A stretch of DNA of 64,000 nucleotides from an uncultured Opitutaceae bacterium (GCA_903862935.1 CAIOZY010000025.1:94579-158578); one strand, 5' to 3'. Numbered from the stretch's first letter, positions 41,330-47,891 are shown. Notes: generated by a model from the letters alone, not told the origin. A program made the numbers and translations.

Positions 41330-42952
41330 TCAAGGCGGGGCCGCGCCGTCCGTGGCATAGTCCCCTCCGACATGAAACACGCCACCTCCCTCCCCCAGCA
41401 GCCGGTCCAGGCCGATCCCCACCTCTTCGACGTCAGACCCATCCCGTGCCGGGTGAAGCACGGCCAGATCCTGCAGCGCTGGCTCGACCTGCCTGTCGGC
41501 GGCCACTTCGTCCTCTTGAACGACCACGACCCGGTGCCGCTGCGCTATCAATTTGAGTCCGAGTTCCCCGGGGCATTCCGCTGGGACTACGCCGAGCGCG
41601 GGCCCGAGGATTTCCGGGTCAGGATAACGAAGCTCAAGGCGGTCGAGGCCCCCGAGCGGGCCCCCGCCTCGCCCCCGCCGGCGGCCGCCGGGAGCCCGCC
41701 AGAGATCGACGCCCGGGGCCTGATGCCCCCCTCGGGCACCATCAACTTCCGTTACGCAAGTTTGGACAACCGTGGACAACACGCTCGTTTCGAGGGCATT
41801 GCCACCGTGACCGTCTGCACTATCGACCACCTGATCCGGGACAGATTTGGACTGTTTTGGACAGGATTTCCCAAAATTTGGGGAAGCTATTGAGGAAGGT
41901 AACACCGTGGCCAGTTTCTCCATCTCAGCGAACAGAGGGATGCTCCTCGGATCGGTGTAACGATCCGTCTGCCTCCACTCGCTGTGCCGGGCCAGCTTCA
42001 CCCGAGCCAGTTCTGAAACACCCACGTTCGCCAAGAAACTTGCGAAGGTGTGCCGCAATGCGTGGAAGTCCACCCGGTAACCCCGTTCGTCTTCGATAGG
42101 AATCCCACAAGCGGCGAGATCGATTTCTAGGCTCCGCACGCTTGGCAGTCCTCGTGGGAATACCTTGTCCGCCTCCGAGACCACGCTTGCCCGTAAAAGC
42201 CTAAGTGCGGCCGCTAGCGGTGGGACTAACGGAATCACCGCACTTCTCTTACTCTTGGTGATTTCGGCTCGAACGTCGATAAACGGCTGGGTTTCGTCCA
42301 GGCGGATATCCGACCAAAGCAATTGCTTTAGCTCCCCCCGTCGAAGGCCTGTGCAGCCAGCGAACAGATAGGGTAGGCGACGTTTTCCGCTCGACTCCAC
42401 CAGCTGCCAGAATTCCTCACGGGTTAGTGCCCGTCGATGGAATGTCTCCTTCTTCGCCAGTTTTGAAACAGCCCGAAGCGGGTTGTACGGACTCCGCCCT
42501 TGCCGCTCCATCCAGTTTAAAAGCGCCATCGCATGACCGAGATACTCGTTAAGCGTTTTTGTCGATAAACCGGATTGCCTAAGACGCCACTTAGTGAAGC
42601 TATCCGCCGTTACGTCCCGGAGGGTTACCCAACCGCATTCTTTCAATAGCCGCTTCAAACGGCACCTTACATGGACGAGGTGAGCCCGGCCGCGATTTCG
42701 CAACTCGAGATCCGCGGCAAAATCCGCAGCATGCTGAGTCAACGGGAGCAGAGTGGCTTCTCGCAATGACTTTGGCCCGAGCAGCCCTGCCAGCTCCTTC
42801 TCCTCGTCTTCGATAAGGTTTCGTGCCTTGGCCTCAGCGACTTCCTTTATGTGGGTTTTTAGAGGCTTATCGAAAATCTTCGGACCGTCACTTAGGCGGT
42901 AGCGCACACGATAAACCCTGCTGCCACGGGGACGGAAGATGCGTTTATACAT
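41330..42952 (-). CDS. Tyrosine recombinase/phage-type integrase; the integrated-form ORF reads through attL into host DNA
   Basis: MYKRIFRPRGSRVYRVRYRLSDGPKIFDKPLKTH; catalytic-type motifs LFAGCTGLRRGELKQLLWSDI, HALRHTFASFLANVGVSELARVKLARHSEWRQTDRYTD. No in-frame stop until 41330, beyond att. Confidence 0.93.
   Translation of the reverse strand: MYKRIFRPRGSRVYRVRYRLSDGPKIFDKPLKTHIKEVAEAKARNLIEDEEKELAGLLGPKSLREATLLPLTQHAADFAADLELRNRGRAHLVHVRCRLKRLLKECGWVTLRDVTADSFTKWRLRQSGLSTKTLNEYLGHAMALLNWMERQGRSPYNPLRAVSKLAKKETFHRRALTREEFWQLVESSGKRRLPYLFAGCTGLRRGELKQLLWSDIRLDETQPFIDVRAEITKSKRSAVIPLVPPLAAALRLLRASVVSEADKVFPRGLPSVRSLEIDLAACGIPIEDERGYRVDFHALRHTFASFLANVGVSELARVKLARHSEWRQTDRYTDPRSIPLFAEMEKLATVLPSSIASPNFGKSCPKQSKSVPDQVVDSADGHGGNALETSVLSTVVQTCVTEVDGARGGHQAPGVDLWRAPGGRRRGRGGGPLGGLDRLELRYPDPEILGPALGVVPAECPGELGLKLIAQRHRVVVVQEDEVAADRQVEPALQDLAVLHPARDGSDVEEVGIGLDRLLGEGGGVFHVGGDYATDGAAPP
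41372..41730 (+). pseudogene. 5' part of DUF2249-domain gene, interrupted by the integrated element (3' part at 47714-47891)
   Basis: MKHATSLPQQPVQADPHLFDVRPIPCRVKHGQILQRWLDLPVGGHFVLLNDHDPVPLRYQFESEFPGAFRWDYAERGPEDFRVRI...PPEIDARGLMPP. Joining to 47714 continues ...EPLVRILEGLETLPAGETLTARTDREPCHLFGEAAQRGFRHQSQIQPDGSWVTTLTRG* in frame. Confidence 0.9.
41877..41898. repeat. 22-bp direct repeat copy 1 (TTTGGGGAAGCTATTGAGGAAG)
   Basis: Perfect match to 47617-47638. Lies in the integrase 3' coding region (encodes SSIASPN on the minus strand). Confidence 0.95.
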
Positions 42953-43154
42953 GACTGCCCCCTCTTGCATCGCCCTTTCCCAAATAGGCTAGAAGCGCGC
43001 TCCTCCAAATTACCCAACGTCCGCCCTCTTTGAAGGCAGATAGCTTCCCGGCTTGGATGCGTCTGTAAACCGTCTTCTCGTCTGCTCGAATTTCAGCCGC
43101 GATTTCAGGCACCTTTAAGAGCCGGTCGGAATCCTGTGGGCATCCGTCATTCAT
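42945..43154 (-). CDS. Excisionase/helix-turn-helix DNA-binding protein
   Basis: MNDGCPQDSDRLLKVPEIAAEIRADEKTVYRRIQAGKLSAFKEGGRWVIWRSALLAYLGK: MerR/Xis-like HTH, overlaps the integrase start. Confidence 0.8.
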   Translation of the reverse strand: MNDGCPQDSDRLLKVPEIAAEIRADEKTVYRRIQAGKLSAFKEGGRWVIWRSALLAYLGKGDARGGSHV

Positions 43155-43645
43155 TGCCGTTTCCCCTTTCCTTTGCGAAGTTGTTCCCGCTCCCACCGAG
43201 AGCCCGGCTCAAGAAACTCTCCATACCAGTCCGGCTTGTCCCCCTCCAGCTCTGCCGGTGTCACCGCCCCCGCCTCAATCGCCCTCCGTTCTATTTCTTT
43301 GCCCCAAGCCCGACACTCGCTTTCTGGAATCATCAGCACTTCCAACTCGCGTACCTCCTTGCTCACCCCAAAAAGATTACGCTTCCTATGGGTAATGTCG
43401 TAACGGAAGCACGTCAGCTTCCCGTCCTTGATCCGCTTGTGAACAGCTGCGCGTGACACAGGGGCGAACATGGCTACGCCGCCCGGTGACACCGCGTGCC
43501 CAAAGCGGCTCTCGATTAGACTGTACCAGTATCTAATCTCTTCATGCGGGCCTGCCTTTCGGTAAACCCTGCTGCCAGGAACGGGCTCGCCTAGAGCCTT
43601 GTGCAGATCAGGCGTGACGTTCACGAACGGGAAAACAGTTGCCAT
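43151..43645 (-). CDS. Hypothetical element-borne protein, possible DNA-binding regulator
   Basis: VSRAAVHKRIKDGKLTCFRYDITHRKRNLFGVSKEVRELEVLMI has an HTH-like segment. Located in an operon-like run with xis and int. Confidence 0.5.
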   Translation of the reverse strand: MATVFPFVNVTPDLHKALGEPVPGSRVYRKAGPHEEIRYWYSLIESRFGHAVSPGGVAMFAPVSRAAVHKRIKDGKLTCFRYDITHRKRNLFGVSKEVRELEVLMIPESECRAWGKEIERRAIEAGAVTPAELEGDKPDWYGEFLEPGSRWEREQLRKGKGKRQ

Positions 43646-43675
43646 GACGTCAACCTATGAATGATTGACGCTGTG

Positions 43676-44104
43676 TCAACCTATATTTCGCCCTCTTCTC
43701 AATACCCGCTCCAACTTCGCAAAACACCGGGAGAACGCTGGCCCTTTGAGCTCGTGCTCCCAGACCCTGAGCACACTCCATCCAAGCTTTCTGAGAGCAG
43801 CCCCCACTCGCCTATCTCGCCTCCTGTTCGCCTCTATCTTTGCTTTCCAGTACTCCCGATTGGCTGAGGGCAGCCTCATGTGAGTTGCACAGCCGTGCCA
43901 AAAACAGCCATCGATGAACACCGCAACACGCTCTTTTTGAAATAAAAAATCGGGCCGTCCTGTGACCTGAGAATTCCGGCACCACCCAGTGATACCGTGC
44001 CAGCGCAGCCCGGCTAGGAATCTCAACTCAGTCGACCGATTCCCGCGGCTTTTGATTGCCGCCATGATTCTCGATCGCTCCTCCGTTGTGAATCGATCGC
44101 TCAA
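43676..44104 (-). CDS. vsr: Very short patch repair (Vsr) endonuclease
   Basis: SRIMAAIKSRGNRSTELRFLAGLRWHGITGWCRNSQVTGRPDFLFQKERVAVFIDGCFWHGCATHMRLPSANREYWKAKIEANRRRDRRVGAALRKLGWSVLRVWEHEL. TTG start. Confidence 0.93.
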   Translation of the reverse strand: MSDRFTTEERSRIMAAIKSRGNRSTELRFLAGLRWHGITGWCRNSQVTGRPDFLFQKERVAVFIDGCFWHGCATHMRLPSANREYWKAKIEANRRRDRRVGAALRKLGWSVLRVWEHELKGPAFSRCFAKLERVLRRGRNIG

Positions 44105-44132
44105 TCTCGCCTGCTCCCCCTGTCACGCCAAC

Positions 44133-45062
44133 CTATGCGCCAACAATCTCAATCTTTAGCGATGGGTCCCTTTCGTATCGGTCAATCAGCTCGTTGTATC
44201 GCTCCACAAGCTCAGCGGTCTTGATCCTTCGGCTGTCGCCCTCAAACACAGCTGCTTCGTGGATATTGCCGGCTAGGAACTCCTCGGCCCCGAAGATGTC
44301 CACGCGGTCCGCAATCTCGAGGGTCTCCGCGAGTCCGTAAGCAACAGCCGTCTTCTGACACAGGGTTACAATCATTGGGCGCAACCCTGCACCAAGATTT
44401 TCGCTGCATTTCCGCAATAATGCTTCACCGGGACTTGTCGTCACGTGAATGGCCATATCTCCCCACACGAAATCCCCAGCCCTCCCCTCCGCTCTGTCCG
44501 CCTCAGAAGCCGAGTGGTGCTCAATCTGCCCCTTCGTGATGCCGGCAAACTTTGCTCCGATAAGATGCTGCAACATTATCCCTTCGGATCGTGACCCCAC
44601 CATTTCCCTCTGACGAACTCGGGCCTGTCCCAATACGTCACTAACAGCCGCCCTAACCGAAAGGGCCGCATCAACTCGAAACTTGAATGGCTTCCCTGCA
44701 AAATAGCCTAAGACCTGTTCCACCCAAAACTTTTCGACCTCCGCTAAGTCAAGACCACCGTTCTCGGCATGGAGTGCATTTAAGAAGCCAACATAAATCC
44801 GCATCTTATCGATGGAACCCCGCGAGGTGCGGCCTCCCTCCTCGGAGAGTACCCTTTCAATTCCGTGCCGTTTCAGAATTGCTTGAACGGCTGCTTTCCC
44901 AAGTCCCTTCACCTGGCCTTTCTTTGGAGCAAGCATTTGATCTGGATCGAGCGGCAAGCACGCCTTTGCGTGGTCCGTCACCACAAGAGCGACTGATAGC
45001 GCGCCGGATCCTGAAAACCCGTTGTCTGTTGCGAATCCTAACAGCTCACTTTTTAGACTCAT
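44133..45062 (-). CDS. DUF4928-like protein, putative restriction-modification partner (candidate endonuclease)
   Basis: Located between the C5-MTase (4-nt overlap ATGA) and Vsr. Sequence ...SEGIMLQHLIGAKFAGITKGQIEHHSASEADRAEGRAGDFVWGDMAIHVTTSPGEALLRKCSENLGAGLRPMIVT. Confidence 0.65.
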   Translation of the reverse strand: MSLKSELLGFATDNGFSGSGALSVALVVTDHAKACLPLDPDQMLAPKKGQVKGLGKAAVQAILKRHGIERVLSEEGGRTSRGSIDKMRIYVGFLNALHAENGGLDLAEVEKFWVEQVLGYFAGKPFKFRVDAALSVRAAVSDVLGQARVRQREMVGSRSEGIMLQHLIGAKFAGITKGQIEHHSASEADRAEGRAGDFVWGDMAIHVTTSPGEALLRKCSENLGAGLRPMIVTLCQKTAVAYGLAETLEIADRVDIFGAEEFLAGNIHEAAVFEGDSRRIKTAELVERYNELIDRYERDPSLKIEIVGA

Positions 45063-46192
45063 GCGATTGCTTGTGCCATCTCAGCGTTAGCCGCTGCCAA
45101 TGGATCTAGAAGGTACCGCCTCAAATGTGCAACGACTGGAACACACAACCCGTCACCAACCACATCATAGGCGTCGTTGTATTCAGGCGGTAGCCAGTAT
45201 GAAGCCGGAAGGCCTTGTAATCGCGCGGCTTCTCGTGGTGAAAGCAGGCGGGAACGAACTTGCGAACCATTTACCTCTAGGACGATTTGCCGCGATGACC
45301 CTCCAGCACTTGTTCGCAAGCAGCCGGCAACACCGTCGAATCGAACCTCCGCTCTCTGTTTTCCATTTCGGGTTCGGCGGTAAACTGTGCCGACGATTCG
45401 CCTGTGTAACTCTTGGGCTTGGCGCACCTTCGAGCGATGCAGTTCATTCATCAGCGACAATAAGTAATCGGTCTCCTGCTTGCTATGCCACGAGACCCAG
45501 CCTCGCGGGTTTTTCTCGATGAGCGTGCCTAGCCTGCGAACTCGCCTGACAGGCGCAGGGAGAGTCCACCAGATCCATTTCCCGCGCGCCTCATCCGAAA
45601 TCGACCCGAAGGCTCTTATCACAGCATTATCATGCCAAAGCGACTCAGGCCCAAACTGACATAGATGTTCCGGGATCGTAGCACCTTGCCGCACCGCTAT
45701 CACAAATAGTCTTGGACGCGATTGCGGGACAAAGAGGGCCGCATCAATGACCAGTGGTCCGAATCGATAATCCGCCCCTGATAAGGCAGAACAGATCGCC
45801 CTGATATCCTGTCCGTCGTTAGACGTTAAGGCACCTTCAACATTTTCAAGAACGATCAAGGTCGGCCTGACGGTCCGCATTAACCTCATGAAAGGCCAGA
45901 ACGTTCCTGACCTCGTCCTCTTCTTCGCGTTGCTATGCCCAATGCCCTCCTTATCTCCAGCTAACGATAAGTCTTGGCATGGGAACGACGCCCAAGCGAG
46001 GTCTGCTGGCGGAACAGTGGTCGGATCGACGGCTGCAACATCGCCTTCGACCAGTTCATTGCCGCCCCAATTCTCTCGATAAATCCGCGCTTTTGTTGGA
46101 TCGAAATCGTTCGCCCATTGGCAGGCCCAATCATTACCCAGCCCCGCGCGGGCCATGCCCCCGCCGGCGAAGAATTCCAAGAAATTGGGCAT
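45059..46192 (-). CDS. DNA (cytosine-5-)-methyltransferase
   Basis: LEFFAGGGMARAGLGNDWACQWANDFD; ASFPCQDLSLAG (PCQ motif); LIVLENVEGALTS (ENV motif); VPQSRPRLFVIAVR; SPREAARLQGLPASY. Confidence 0.95.
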   Translation of the reverse strand: MPNFLEFFAGGGMARAGLGNDWACQWANDFDPTKARIYRENWGGNELVEGDVAAVDPTTVPPADLAWASFPCQDLSLAGDKEGIGHSNAKKRTRSGTFWPFMRLMRTVRPTLIVLENVEGALTSNDGQDIRAICSALSGADYRFGPLVIDAALFVPQSRPRLFVIAVRQGATIPEHLCQFGPESLWHDNAVIRAFGSISDEARGKWIWWTLPAPVRRVRRLGTLIEKNPRGWVSWHSKQETDYLLSLMNELHRSKVRQAQELHRRIVGTVYRRTRNGKQRAEVRFDGVAGCLRTSAGGSSRQIVLEVNGSQVRSRLLSPREAARLQGLPASYWLPPEYNDAYDVVGDGLCVPVVAHLRRYLLDPLAAANAEMAQAIA

Positions 46193-46237
46193 GAGTCAGC
46201 AAAGCGTTTGCTGCGCCCCAATGTCAATCCGCTCTGC

Positions 46238-47503
46238 CTACTCGCATTTAACCCCTGGCATTTTCCCGTTTGTTCGCGGCTGAAGAGGACCGGGAGGAAC
46301 CTCTGAAACAACGGTTGATATGAAGGTCTCCCAGTCAGAAGCGCTCGCTCCGATCACCATTCCGCGCAGGCGATAGCACCAATTTTGTCCGAAGCGCCGC
46401 CGTAGGCCTTCGAAATCCGTTCCGCCTGCCGCTACCGCTAGTTCGCCCAATCGTTTTCGCCACGCCGCCGCACCCGGAGACGCCCAACTGAACTGCCGTG
46501 AGCAGCGCCTCCAACTCGCTGCCTCTCTTCTGTCGCACTCAACACGCCGGCAACCCTTCCATTCGCCCCTCCGGAAGTGTAGTCCTGCCTCAAGATACTT
46601 GCCGATATATTCAGCCACAGCTGCTTCGGCTTTACGGAAAGGTAAGAACTCGGAGCGGCCCAATCCGTATCGGGAGCACCAGCGTCGCAGTTCAGCCCAA
46701 CATTTTCGAAGCTCAGGAGGAGCGTTCCGCGCATATTCCTTTGTCAACGCCCTTGCTGTGCCAAGATCGCCCTTCTTACGAGCGGCCGCCGCACCCCAAA
46801 GGGCCTCCCAGTCGAATGCATTTGGTTTCAGGTCAAACGGTGTAGCTACCAACAGGTGCCAATGAGGAGCCCCCCTTTCTTGAGGCTCTAGAACTCGGAT
46901 ATACGAGCGAATCCATGGCAGGCGACGCCGTCGCATTTTGTGCCAACGCTGCGCGAATTCCCTTGGATTTAAGTCTTCTCGCGTTGTCAGGGTCAGGAAT
47001 CCGCACTGTTCCCGGCGATAGTGCTCAGAAAAGGCTTCAACATTCCTGCGCAGGGCGAAAGCACCCTTTCGCTCAGGCGGGCTCGGTGGCTCCATGGTTA
47101 CCCATGTCTTTCCATCCTCAGACCTCCGCCAATGGCGGCCTGCGTTATCGAATCCGTCGTCCTTTCCTTCCGCCTCACAGTCGATTCGGACACCCTCGCC
47201 ATTGTGGTACCCGTAGATGGTCGCTGTCCGGGTAAGCCGATACTCGCCCGGCAGTCTGTAGGTCGCGCAATTGTTTTTATTTCGACTAGGAAGGCCGGCG
47301 GGGCCGCTCAGGCCGCGCTCCGCGCGGCCTGGGGCGTCCCCTTCCGGCCCCCAAGCCTCGGAATTACCCCACGCCCCTTCCCCCGCCCCAACGGGGCGGG
47401 GAACCTCCCGCTTGCTCTGGGCGCTTCGCTGGGGCTCCGCGTCCCGTCGCTGCGCTCCGCCATCGACGGAGCCGCAAGCGAGTTCTGACTCACCGGGTCC
47501 CAC
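46238..47503 (-). CDS. HUH-superfamily rolling-circle replication initiator (Rep); start codon uncertain
   Basis: GFLTLTTREDLNPREFAQRWHKMRRRRLPWIRSYIRVLEPQERGAPHWHLLVATPFDL (HxH = HUH motif) and AVAEYIGKYLEAG (YxxKY catalytic-Tyr motif). The N-terminal ~70 codons overlap a GC-rich hairpin region and may not be translated. Confidence 0.8.
   Translation of the reverse strand: MGPGESELACGSVDGGAQRRDAEPQRSAQSKREVPRPVGAGEGAWGNSEAWGPEGDAPGRAERGLSGPAGLPSRNKNNCATYRLPGEYRLTRTATIYGYHNGEGVRIDCEAEGKDDGFDNAGRHWRRSEDGKTWVTMEPPSPPERKGAFALRRNVEAFSEHYRREQCGFLTLTTREDLNPREFAQRWHKMRRRRLPWIRSYIRVLEPQERGAPHWHLLVATPFDLKPNAFDWEALWGAAAARKKGDLGTARALTKEYARNAPPELRKCWAELRRWCSRYGLGRSEFLPFRKAEAAVAEYIGKYLEAGLHFRRGEWKGCRRVECDRREAASWRRCSRQFSWASPGAAAWRKRLGELAVAAGGTDFEGLRRRFGQNWCYRLRGMVIGASASDWETFISTVVSEVPPGPLQPRTNGKMPGVKCE
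47310..47330. other. Perfect hairpin (AGGCCGCGC TCC GCGCGGCCT), candidate part of the element replication origin
   Basis: 9-bp perfect stem (10 bp with the outer C-G pair 47309/47331) and a 3-nt loop upstream of the Rep gene. Confidence 0.6.
47381..47401. other. Perfect hairpin (CCCCGCCCC AAC GGGGCGGGG), candidate part of the element replication origin
   Basis: 9-bp perfect stem and 3-nt loop, 50 bp from the preceding hairpin. Confidence 0.6.
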
Positions 47504-47616
47504 GGGCCGCCTCCATTGCGGCCCGAATCAGTGTCAATAGTGCATCACGTACGGGCTGACCTAGCAGTGGCCAACACTGGACGATTGTGCCCAGTTCTGG
47601 ACTCAGTTTGTCAGCG

Positions 47617-47638
47617 TTTGGGGAAGCTATTGAGGAAG
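47617..47638. repeat. 22-bp direct repeat copy 2 (TTTGGGGAAGCTATTGAGGAAG)
   Basis: Perfect match to 41877-41898. Also encodes SSIASPN on the minus strand, in the frame that would continue from the integrase in a circular form. Confidence 0.95.
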
Positions 47639-47713
47639 CTCGCGATTTCTCACTTTTGGAAGTGATTATTTTGCAGCAACCTCCGTTAGACCCTTTGGGG
47701 GTTCGATGCCCCC

Positions 47714-47891
47714 GGAGCCCCTGGTGCGCATCCTGGAGGGCTTGGAGACGCTGCCCGCCGGGGAGACTTTGACGGCCCGAACCGACCGGGAGCCCTGCCA
47801 TCTTTTCGGCGAGGCCGCCCAGCGCGGATTCCGCCACCAGTCCCAGATTCAGCCCGACGGAAGCTGGGTGACGACCCTCACCCGGGGCTGA
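47714..47891 (+). pseudogene. 3' part of the interrupted DUF2249-domain gene
   Basis: EPLVRILEGLETLPAGETLTARTDREPCHLFGEAAQRGFRHQSQIQPDGSWVTTLTRG*. An ATG inside the att core (47706) could restart translation. Confidence 0.88.

Follow-up and report, generated by a model that had tools for sequence, protein, structure and literature searches.

Several described systems share parts of their make-up with the element we report here, a 5,983-bp insertion (positions 41731-47713) in a 64,000-nucleotide stretch of DNA, hereafter the window, from an uncultured Opitutaceae bacterium (GCA_903862935.1 CAIOZY010000025.1:94579-158578). Actinomycete integrative and conjugative elements (AICEs) of the pSAM2 type likewise combine a tyrosine integrase (Int) and an excisionase (Xis) with attachment at a tRNA 3′ end and an HUH replication initiator, RepSA (PMC3218068). 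The window Rep matches RepSA weakly, and unlike the AICEs the window element is non-actinobacterial, is without an FtsK/TraB translocase and has a Rep nearer to the G2P and Arp proteins of filamentous phages and phasyl plasmids. AICEs are also larger, and membership in this group was rejected because no FtsK/SpoIIIE-type Tra translocase is present among the seven genes of the element. The tmRNA islands with IntY (I23, I44, I55) have a tyrosine integrase, an RNA-gene 3′ end as target, direct repeats and defence cargo including type II restriction-modification (R-M) with no transfer genes, all like the window element; they differ in size (~20-70 kb), in their Pseudomonas and Vibrio hosts and in being transduced by jumbo phages, and an HUH Rep with an in-gene origin is not mentioned in the sections of the source used here (PMC12595487). 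ICEBs1 resembles the window element in having tRNA-Leu as its primary chromosomal attachment site (attB) and protein genes as secondary sites; unlike the window element, it is a full conjugative element of Bacillus and its secondary insertion has been shown experimentally (PMC3715440).

Phasyl (Arp) plasmids and G2P-type filamentous phages have Rep proteins 30-32% identical to that of the window element, and their rep genes share its CTTCCTTGTC...AACAA motif, likewise towards the 5′ end. The Arp replicons are plasmids of 1.3-1.8 kb and their phage counterparts bear Zot; those examined showed none of the features tyrosine integrase, tRNA attachment and R-M cargo that mark the window element. 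The Pseudomonas aeruginosa plasmid pNECK1 has the same C5-methyltransferase, DUF4928 and Vsr genes, but on a mobilizable MOBQ plasmid and not an integrative element. Each component is already known, and an integrative rolling-circle replicon with defence genes is a known kind of element. The combination of an integrase directed to the tRNA T-arm with a filamentous-phage or Arp-type Rep and an in-gene origin, in defence carriers of 3-9 kb, was not found in the open-licence PMC papers searched; searches there on phasyl plasmids gave nothing useful.

We consider it highly probable that the window element is an integrative rolling-circle replicon that carries a type II R-M-Vsr operon; a self-excising, rolling-circle-replicating element with defence cargo is the simplest reading. 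Its seven genes, all on the minus strand, are rep, C5-methyltransferase, DUF4928, vsr, a 164-aa helix-turn-helix (HTH)-like gene, xis and int. A first-pass annotation had placed an element with these genes in this order at 41722-47713, inserted into a DUF2249 gene and combining an integrase and an HUH Rep with a compact defence payload. This holds in the family matches, the motifs and the open reading frame (ORF) restored by joining the flanks, and both uninterrupted DUF2249 homologues and related elements of the same architecture exist. That annotation had also taken direct repeats as the bounds. Both copies of GATGCCCCC are present at the ends, but two copies of this nine-base sequence in 64 kb is chance level (mean 1.9; at least two copies in 56 of 100 shuffles), so the repeat by itself proves no boundary. 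The features at the two ends are as follows.

41372-41730, plus strand: 5′ part of the DUF2249 gene (domain 1 and the start of domain 2), split by the element (PF10006, 86 bits; joined ORF; orthologues)
41722-41730, plus strand: attL core GATGCCCCC, the host/element crossover repeat, placed by restoration of the DUF2249 ORF
41731-41741, plus strand: element-borne tRNA 3′ end CTCGGGC-A-CCA (acceptor 3′ strand, discriminator, CCA), int side of the element's attachment site (attP), from the 28-bp tRNA-Leu(CAA) identity of the joined attP
47697-47704, plus strand: 5′ half of the T-arm, GGGGG-TTC, of the tRNA mimic in attP, rep side, from the sequence
47705-47713, plus strand: attR core GATGCCCCC, the second copy of the 9-mer
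47714-47891, plus strand: 3′ part of the DUF2249 gene, the remainder of domain 2 (PF10006, 45 bits; joined ORF of 178 aa)

The boundaries are supported by the restored ORF, by GC contrast (56.5% in the element versus 66.6% in the remaining window), by a tRNA 3′ end in attP and by the like anatomy of relatives with perfect attL/attR repeats. Joining 41372-41730 to 47714-47891 gives a single two-domain DUF2249 ORF, the second domain of which is cut short by the insertion. The junction, between DARGLMPP and EPLVRIL, lies inside the block DxRGLxPPEPLxRIL, which is conserved in 14 uninterrupted orthologues. The joined protein found matches in 42 of 200 Opitutaceae genomes, about 30 of these matches being unbroken across the junction, and the uninterrupted Opitutaceae orthologues are at most 73% identical to it.

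The tRNA 3′ end in attP is the decisive evidence. The rejoined ends of the element read TTTGGGGGTTCGATGCCCCCCTCGGGCACCA, that is, T-stem and T-loop, acceptor 3′ strand, discriminator and CCA, with int adjoining, and 28 bp of this attP are identical to the 3′ end of tRNA-Leu(CAA) of the same genome. No tRNA gene is present at the window insertion site, which lies in the DUF2249 gene. Because attP matches tRNA-Leu(CAA) while the insertion lies in a protein gene, the window copy is off its natural target, a tRNA 3′ end: tRNA-Leu(CAA) would be the natural attB, and the DUF2249 site is an off-target one. Judged by sequence, the window copy is a clear non-tRNA exception among the elements, at a putative T-arm-like pseudo-site GGGGcctGATGCCCCC. 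Most DUF2249 orthologues have RGLEPPEP, versus RGLMPPEP in the host, and the latter yields the CTGATGCCCCC core.

The same genome has an int-only relative (integrase 56% identical) beside the 3′ end of its tRNA-Leu(CAA) gene, and a third element, 4.5 kb long and with a rep, at tRNA-Leu(CAG). No second end was identified for the C40 int-only remnant. Occupation of the primary tRNA-Leu(CAA) site may have caused the off-target insertion. ICEBs1, with a 7-bp crossover between short inverted repeats in its tRNA-Leu attB, inserts into protein genes, despite many mismatches, if it lacks access to the primary site (PMC3715440). We infer that crossover in the window family occurs within about 7 bases in the 3′ half of the T-loop and the 3′ strand of the T-stem, since attL/attR identity breaks just past the T-stem in two relatives at tRNA-Ser (L062 and L080; loci of relatives are numbered with L) and after TTCGAGTCCC in L038, taken together with the nine-base core in the window.

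At its secondary sites ICEBs1 excises poorly or not at all (PMC3715440), which raises the possibility that the window copy is a dead remnant, stranded at a poor secondary site with excision lost and its R-M operon now a resident chromosomal system. We regard this as rather unlikely, as all genes of the element are open, the attachment core and arms are intact and the core copies are identical, so that the shared core should form no heteroduplex.

The replication functions point to an integrative replicon with its own initiator and a predicted double-strand origin inside rep.

46238-47503, minus strand: rep, HUH rolling-circle initiator (HWH, YIGKY) of the filamentous-phage G2P/phasyl Arp type (PF23343, 4e-10; alignment)
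47284-47293, minus strand: predicted double-strand origin nick site CTTCCTAG^TC inside rep (conserved at the DNA level in 27/33 relatives' rep genes, Arp plasmids and filamentous phages)
47309-47331, minus strand: origin hairpin CAGGCCGCGC-GGA-GCGCGGCCTG, 15 nt upstream of the nick motif (10-bp perfect stem)

Rep matches the REP_ORF2-G2P family (PF23343), and the HUH residues H214/H216 and the two tyrosines of the YxxxY motif, Y299/Y303, are invariant in the alignment. Its identity is 32% to the Arp protein of phasyl mini-plasmids and 30% to the Rep of a filamentous phage on a Zot-bearing contig; a different family member shares 46% with that phage Rep. This type of Rep is common to filamentous phages and integrative elements. 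In this initiator superfamily, CTTG-type nick sites are the classical form. The sequence CTTCCTWGTC, or one close to it, occurs at the same place in 27 of the 33 rep genes, with a codon usage well away from background: where the residue is encoded, CTT, CCT and TGT are used in 24/25, 25/25 and 24/24 cases (backgrounds 14, 21 and 36%). We predict this motif to be the nick site of the double-strand origin because it is conserved at the DNA level and shared with Arp plasmids and filamentous-prophage-like contigs; the predicted target of Rep is written CTTCCTAGTC. In most relatives a hairpin, usually with a GNA loop, precedes the motif, and the window hairpin has a 10-bp perfect stem against a shuffle maximum of 8 (fold z = -3.4). 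The nick motif is present in the Arp plasmids; the GNA-loop hairpin was not found in those examined.

A scan of viral contigs with a longer form of the motif gave five contigs resembling filamentous prophages (L196-L200), all short, with a related Rep and the same nick motif. L198 was checked against Pfam (Zot, TspB-like); L196, L197, L199 and L200 resemble it by eye and also have IS110-like transposases. Single-protein searches of viral contigs and phage records with Rep or DUF4928, and a scan of genome contigs with the Rep alignment, gave nothing useful.

The cargo is a compact operon of three genes.

43676-44104, minus strand: vsr, very-short-patch mismatch endonuclease (TIGR00632, 116 bits, above cut-off)
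44133-45062, minus strand: DUF4928 protein, predicted type II restriction endonuclease (PF16280, 9e-55; PADLOC REase_II, 1.8e-43; synteny with the C5-methyltransferase)
45059-46192, minus strand: C5-cytosine DNA methyltransferase (PF00145, 2.5e-45; TIGR00675 above cut-off)

The DUF4928 protein had been named as the candidate nuclease, and the PADLOC match and the adjacent C5-methyltransferase in most loci examined bear this out. Among ten further verrucomicrobial DUF4928 loci, a C5-methyltransferase match is adjacent in eight and a Vsr match is also present in four. The methyltransferase adjoins DUF4928 in all three plasmids examined, and on pNECK1 the methyltransferase-DUF4928-Vsr trio has the same order (54, 51 and 40% identity). 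The operon thus occurs on proteobacterial plasmids, independent of the integrative element. A standalone orphan methyltransferase was considered, and an adjacent partner of the restriction endonuclease type was found. The cargo was first described as a solitary R-M-like system, of which the R-M nature stands and the solitary state does not: it is probably a type II R-M module, a methyltransferase with an adjacent DUF4928 of the restriction endonuclease type, accompanied by Vsr, with restriction predicted. The fold of the 44133-45062 product had been proposed as a check. Its AlphaFold model (pLDDT 84) has a conserved GDF...AIHVT hairpin between helices, and the top fold hits, all non-significant, include MspJI, PspGI, YaeQ and BsoBI of the PD-(D/E)XK type; a sequence search of the PDB gave nothing useful. 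From this model a divergent PD-(D/E)XK nuclease is likely.

A first search, among relatives, gave Rep homologues in 8 of 57 genomes; across the class the figure is 24 of 384 genomes, both counts including the window genome. In every element int and rep occupy opposite ends, and xis is usual. At 17 loci a rep-cargo-int unit has int directly against the 3′ end of a tRNA or tmRNA gene (Asn, Glu, Gly, Pro, Leu, Met, Lys, Asp, Ser and tmRNA; L046, with a reversed tRNA-Ser-like fragment at its end, and L014, at a contig end, are excluded). Exact attL/attR repeats of 17-38 bp, covering the T-loop and reaching as far as the CCA, are present in 13 of the 17, and the elements delimited in this way measure 2.85-8.7 kb. 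The smallest complete relative, L062 (~2.85 kb, between tRNA-Ser repeats), is apparently a minimal element of essentially rep and int only.

Cargo is interchangeable within the family and often anti-phage: C5-methyltransferase/Vsr/MvaI-BcnI restriction endonuclease in L016, AbiL in L015, SIR2 in L019, type IIG R-M in L039, a KAP/PifA-like ATPase in L040, BglII restriction endonuclease with MT-A70 and DndB in L057, and type I R-M in L041. The synteny int-xis-vsr-DUF4928-dcm-rep, for which a search had been suggested, was not found elsewhere in exact form; the backbone recurs with other cargo.

Several points weigh against a mobile replicon with defence cargo as the interpretation of this locus. 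A search of 12 further genomes in the genus gave no DUF2249 gene, so a near-isogenic empty site is not available, and excision and the circle are predictions from the sequence. Beyond the nine-base core, the proposed pseudo-attB has little in common with attP except GGGG. The frame of int has no stop within the element and crosses attL into host DNA, which leaves the integrase C-terminus undefined. The codon test of the nick motif counts related sequences as independent, and its probabilities overstate that independence. The DUF4928 model has no PDB fold match at E<=0.001, and no recognised defence genes are present in L014, L018, L023, L024, L038 and L062.

With an integrative rolling-circle replicon as the preferred interpretation, the element may work as follows. 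Int and Xis, with two arm-type repeats, would recombine the attP core with a tRNA T-arm, and the tRNA would be rebuilt on integration from the 3′-end copy that attP brings along. The window copy would have entered the DUF2249 gene where the codons for RGLMPPEP by chance spell a T-arm-like sequence, its natural target, tRNA-Leu(CAA), already having a related integrase remnant alongside. After excision, Rep would nick the circle in its own gene, at the predicted site beside the GGA-loop hairpin, and start rolling-circle replication in the fashion of filamentous phages and phasyl plasmids. Because all genes are co-directional, transcription via int across attP could turn on rep in the circle only. 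The methyltransferase would shield DNA and DUF4928 cleave unmodified DNA, and Vsr would mend T:G mismatches arising from deamination of 5-methylcytosine.

Conjugative mobilization, transduction or packaging by a filamentous helper may be the route between cells. One possibility is an integrative mobilizable element (IME), in which the HUH Rep also serves as relaxase and a conjugative element moves the excised circle. Rep belongs to the HUH family, rolling-circle initiators count some relaxases (MOBT) among their relatives, and the cargo is common to mobilizable plasmids; however, Rep is of the G2P/Arp type, there is no relaxase family match among the seven genes, and no oriT was identified, none having been searched for. 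We therefore consider this tentative at best, and of the first-pass description as a minimal integrative plasmid or IME we retain the integrative replicon, whereas an IME is not assertable with no canonical relaxase or oriT identified.

Another possibility, which we also hold to be doubtful, is a passive passenger that generalised transduction or a jumbo phage carries between cells, Rep serving solely to maintain the excised form. L019 is integrated in tmRNA, as are the IntY islands, which have type II R-M and no transfer genes and are moved by a jumbo phage (PMC12595487). However, the larger size of these islands and the lack of mention of an HUH Rep in the sections of the source used here speak against this.

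Least probable is an inovirus satellite, an unlikely case in which a helper phage with a matching origin packages single strands and the defence genes are delivered as a competitor of other phages: Rep and the nick motif are common to Zot-bearing filamentous phages, element sizes of 2.8-8.7 kb fall within the filamentous-phage range and no transfer genes are present, but no packaging signal was identified, a helper inovirus in the hosts was not sought, and free Arp plasmids share the origin with no known packaging. Family matches gave no Zot or coat gene among the window element genes. Extended to the whole undescribed family of 3-9 kb (mainly Opitutaceae, also other Verrucomicrobiota), with tRNA integrase and filamentous-phage origin and Rep, the proposal becomes slightly less probable still: satellites with exchangeable anti-phage cargo, moved as helper-packaged single strands and re-integrating at tRNAs or, once those sites are occupied, at protein-gene sequences that resemble a T-arm.

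Whatever the route, the integrative replicon family presents a very small chassis that repeatedly acquires compact defence systems. Its conserved ends, arm sites and in-gene origin allow new members and their cargo to be delimited exactly, a useful tool for defence discovery in Verrucomicrobiota. With a relative beside the tRNA-Leu target, the off-target copy offers a way to test attachment specificity and exclusion between elements, and through the shared origin a role of filamentous phages as packaging helpers can be tested directly.

The remaining features belong to the integration functions and the backbone.

41330-42970, minus strand: int, tyrosine recombinase ORF, element-encoded part 41731-42970 (PF00589, 8e-14; PHROG integrase, 5.6e-41)
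41877-41898, plus strand: arm-type direct repeat TTTGGGGAAGCTATTGAGGAAG, int side, two 9-bp half-repeats with a 12-bp period (same spacing in relatives)
42945-43157, minus strand: xis, small HTH_17 excisionase-like protein (PF12728, 1e-9; TIGR01764, 4e-5)
43151-43645, minus strand: conserved accessory protein of 164 aa with an HTH-like segment, backbone gene (relatives' homologues)
47490-47704, minus strand: small ORF overlapping the rep start, with conserved C-terminus ...W..L....R..(L/I).., predicted start only (ORFs of L014, L016, L018, L019 and L023)
47617-47638, plus strand: arm-type direct repeat, rep side, identical to the copy at 41877-41898

The integrase alignment has the R-H-R-H-Y residues conserved (R210, H303xxR306, H329, Y338). 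Xis is 78% identical over 54 aa to that of a second element in the same genome. The 164-aa protein has 44-48% identical homologues in L015 and L018, similar proteins in L038 and L080, and no family match in profile searches.

The 22-bp repeat was overlooked in the first-pass annotation and had no match within 3 mismatches across 100 shuffles. Most relatives have two copies of one element-specific repeat, the first ~135 bp in from the int end and the second ~60 bp in from the rep end, and a copy consists of two 9-bp half-repeats with a 12-bp period; L019 and L023 have no exact arm repeat above control level. These are probably arm-type binding sites of the integrase, since their positions are fixed while the sequence varies between elements. 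The 22-bp repeat was rejected as the attachment site: excision there leaves a scar and does not restore the ORF, and the equivalents in relatives are internal at fixed distances. An ARAGORN tRNA-Pro call in the window (61881-61962) looks spurious and is not in the Rfam scan.

Three relatives have unusual arrangements. In L015 (3.6-16.0 kb), two different integrase-bearing elements lie in tandem at one tRNA-Asn with three attachment-site copies. On the int side of L046 (~2.5 kb), the int end abuts a reversed tRNA-Ser 3′-end-like fragment that lies in or past a protein gene and may mark another insertion outside a tRNA. In L014 (8.1-16.3 kb), rep and int are separated by genes for a TonB receptor, NrdD/NrdG-like proteins and further metabolic functions, with the contig stopping just past int; this could represent either unusual cargo or two broken elements. 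In tRNA-integrated relatives, the frame of the small ORF upstream of rep runs into the tRNA, giving hypothetical proteins of the 'GFEPT' type.

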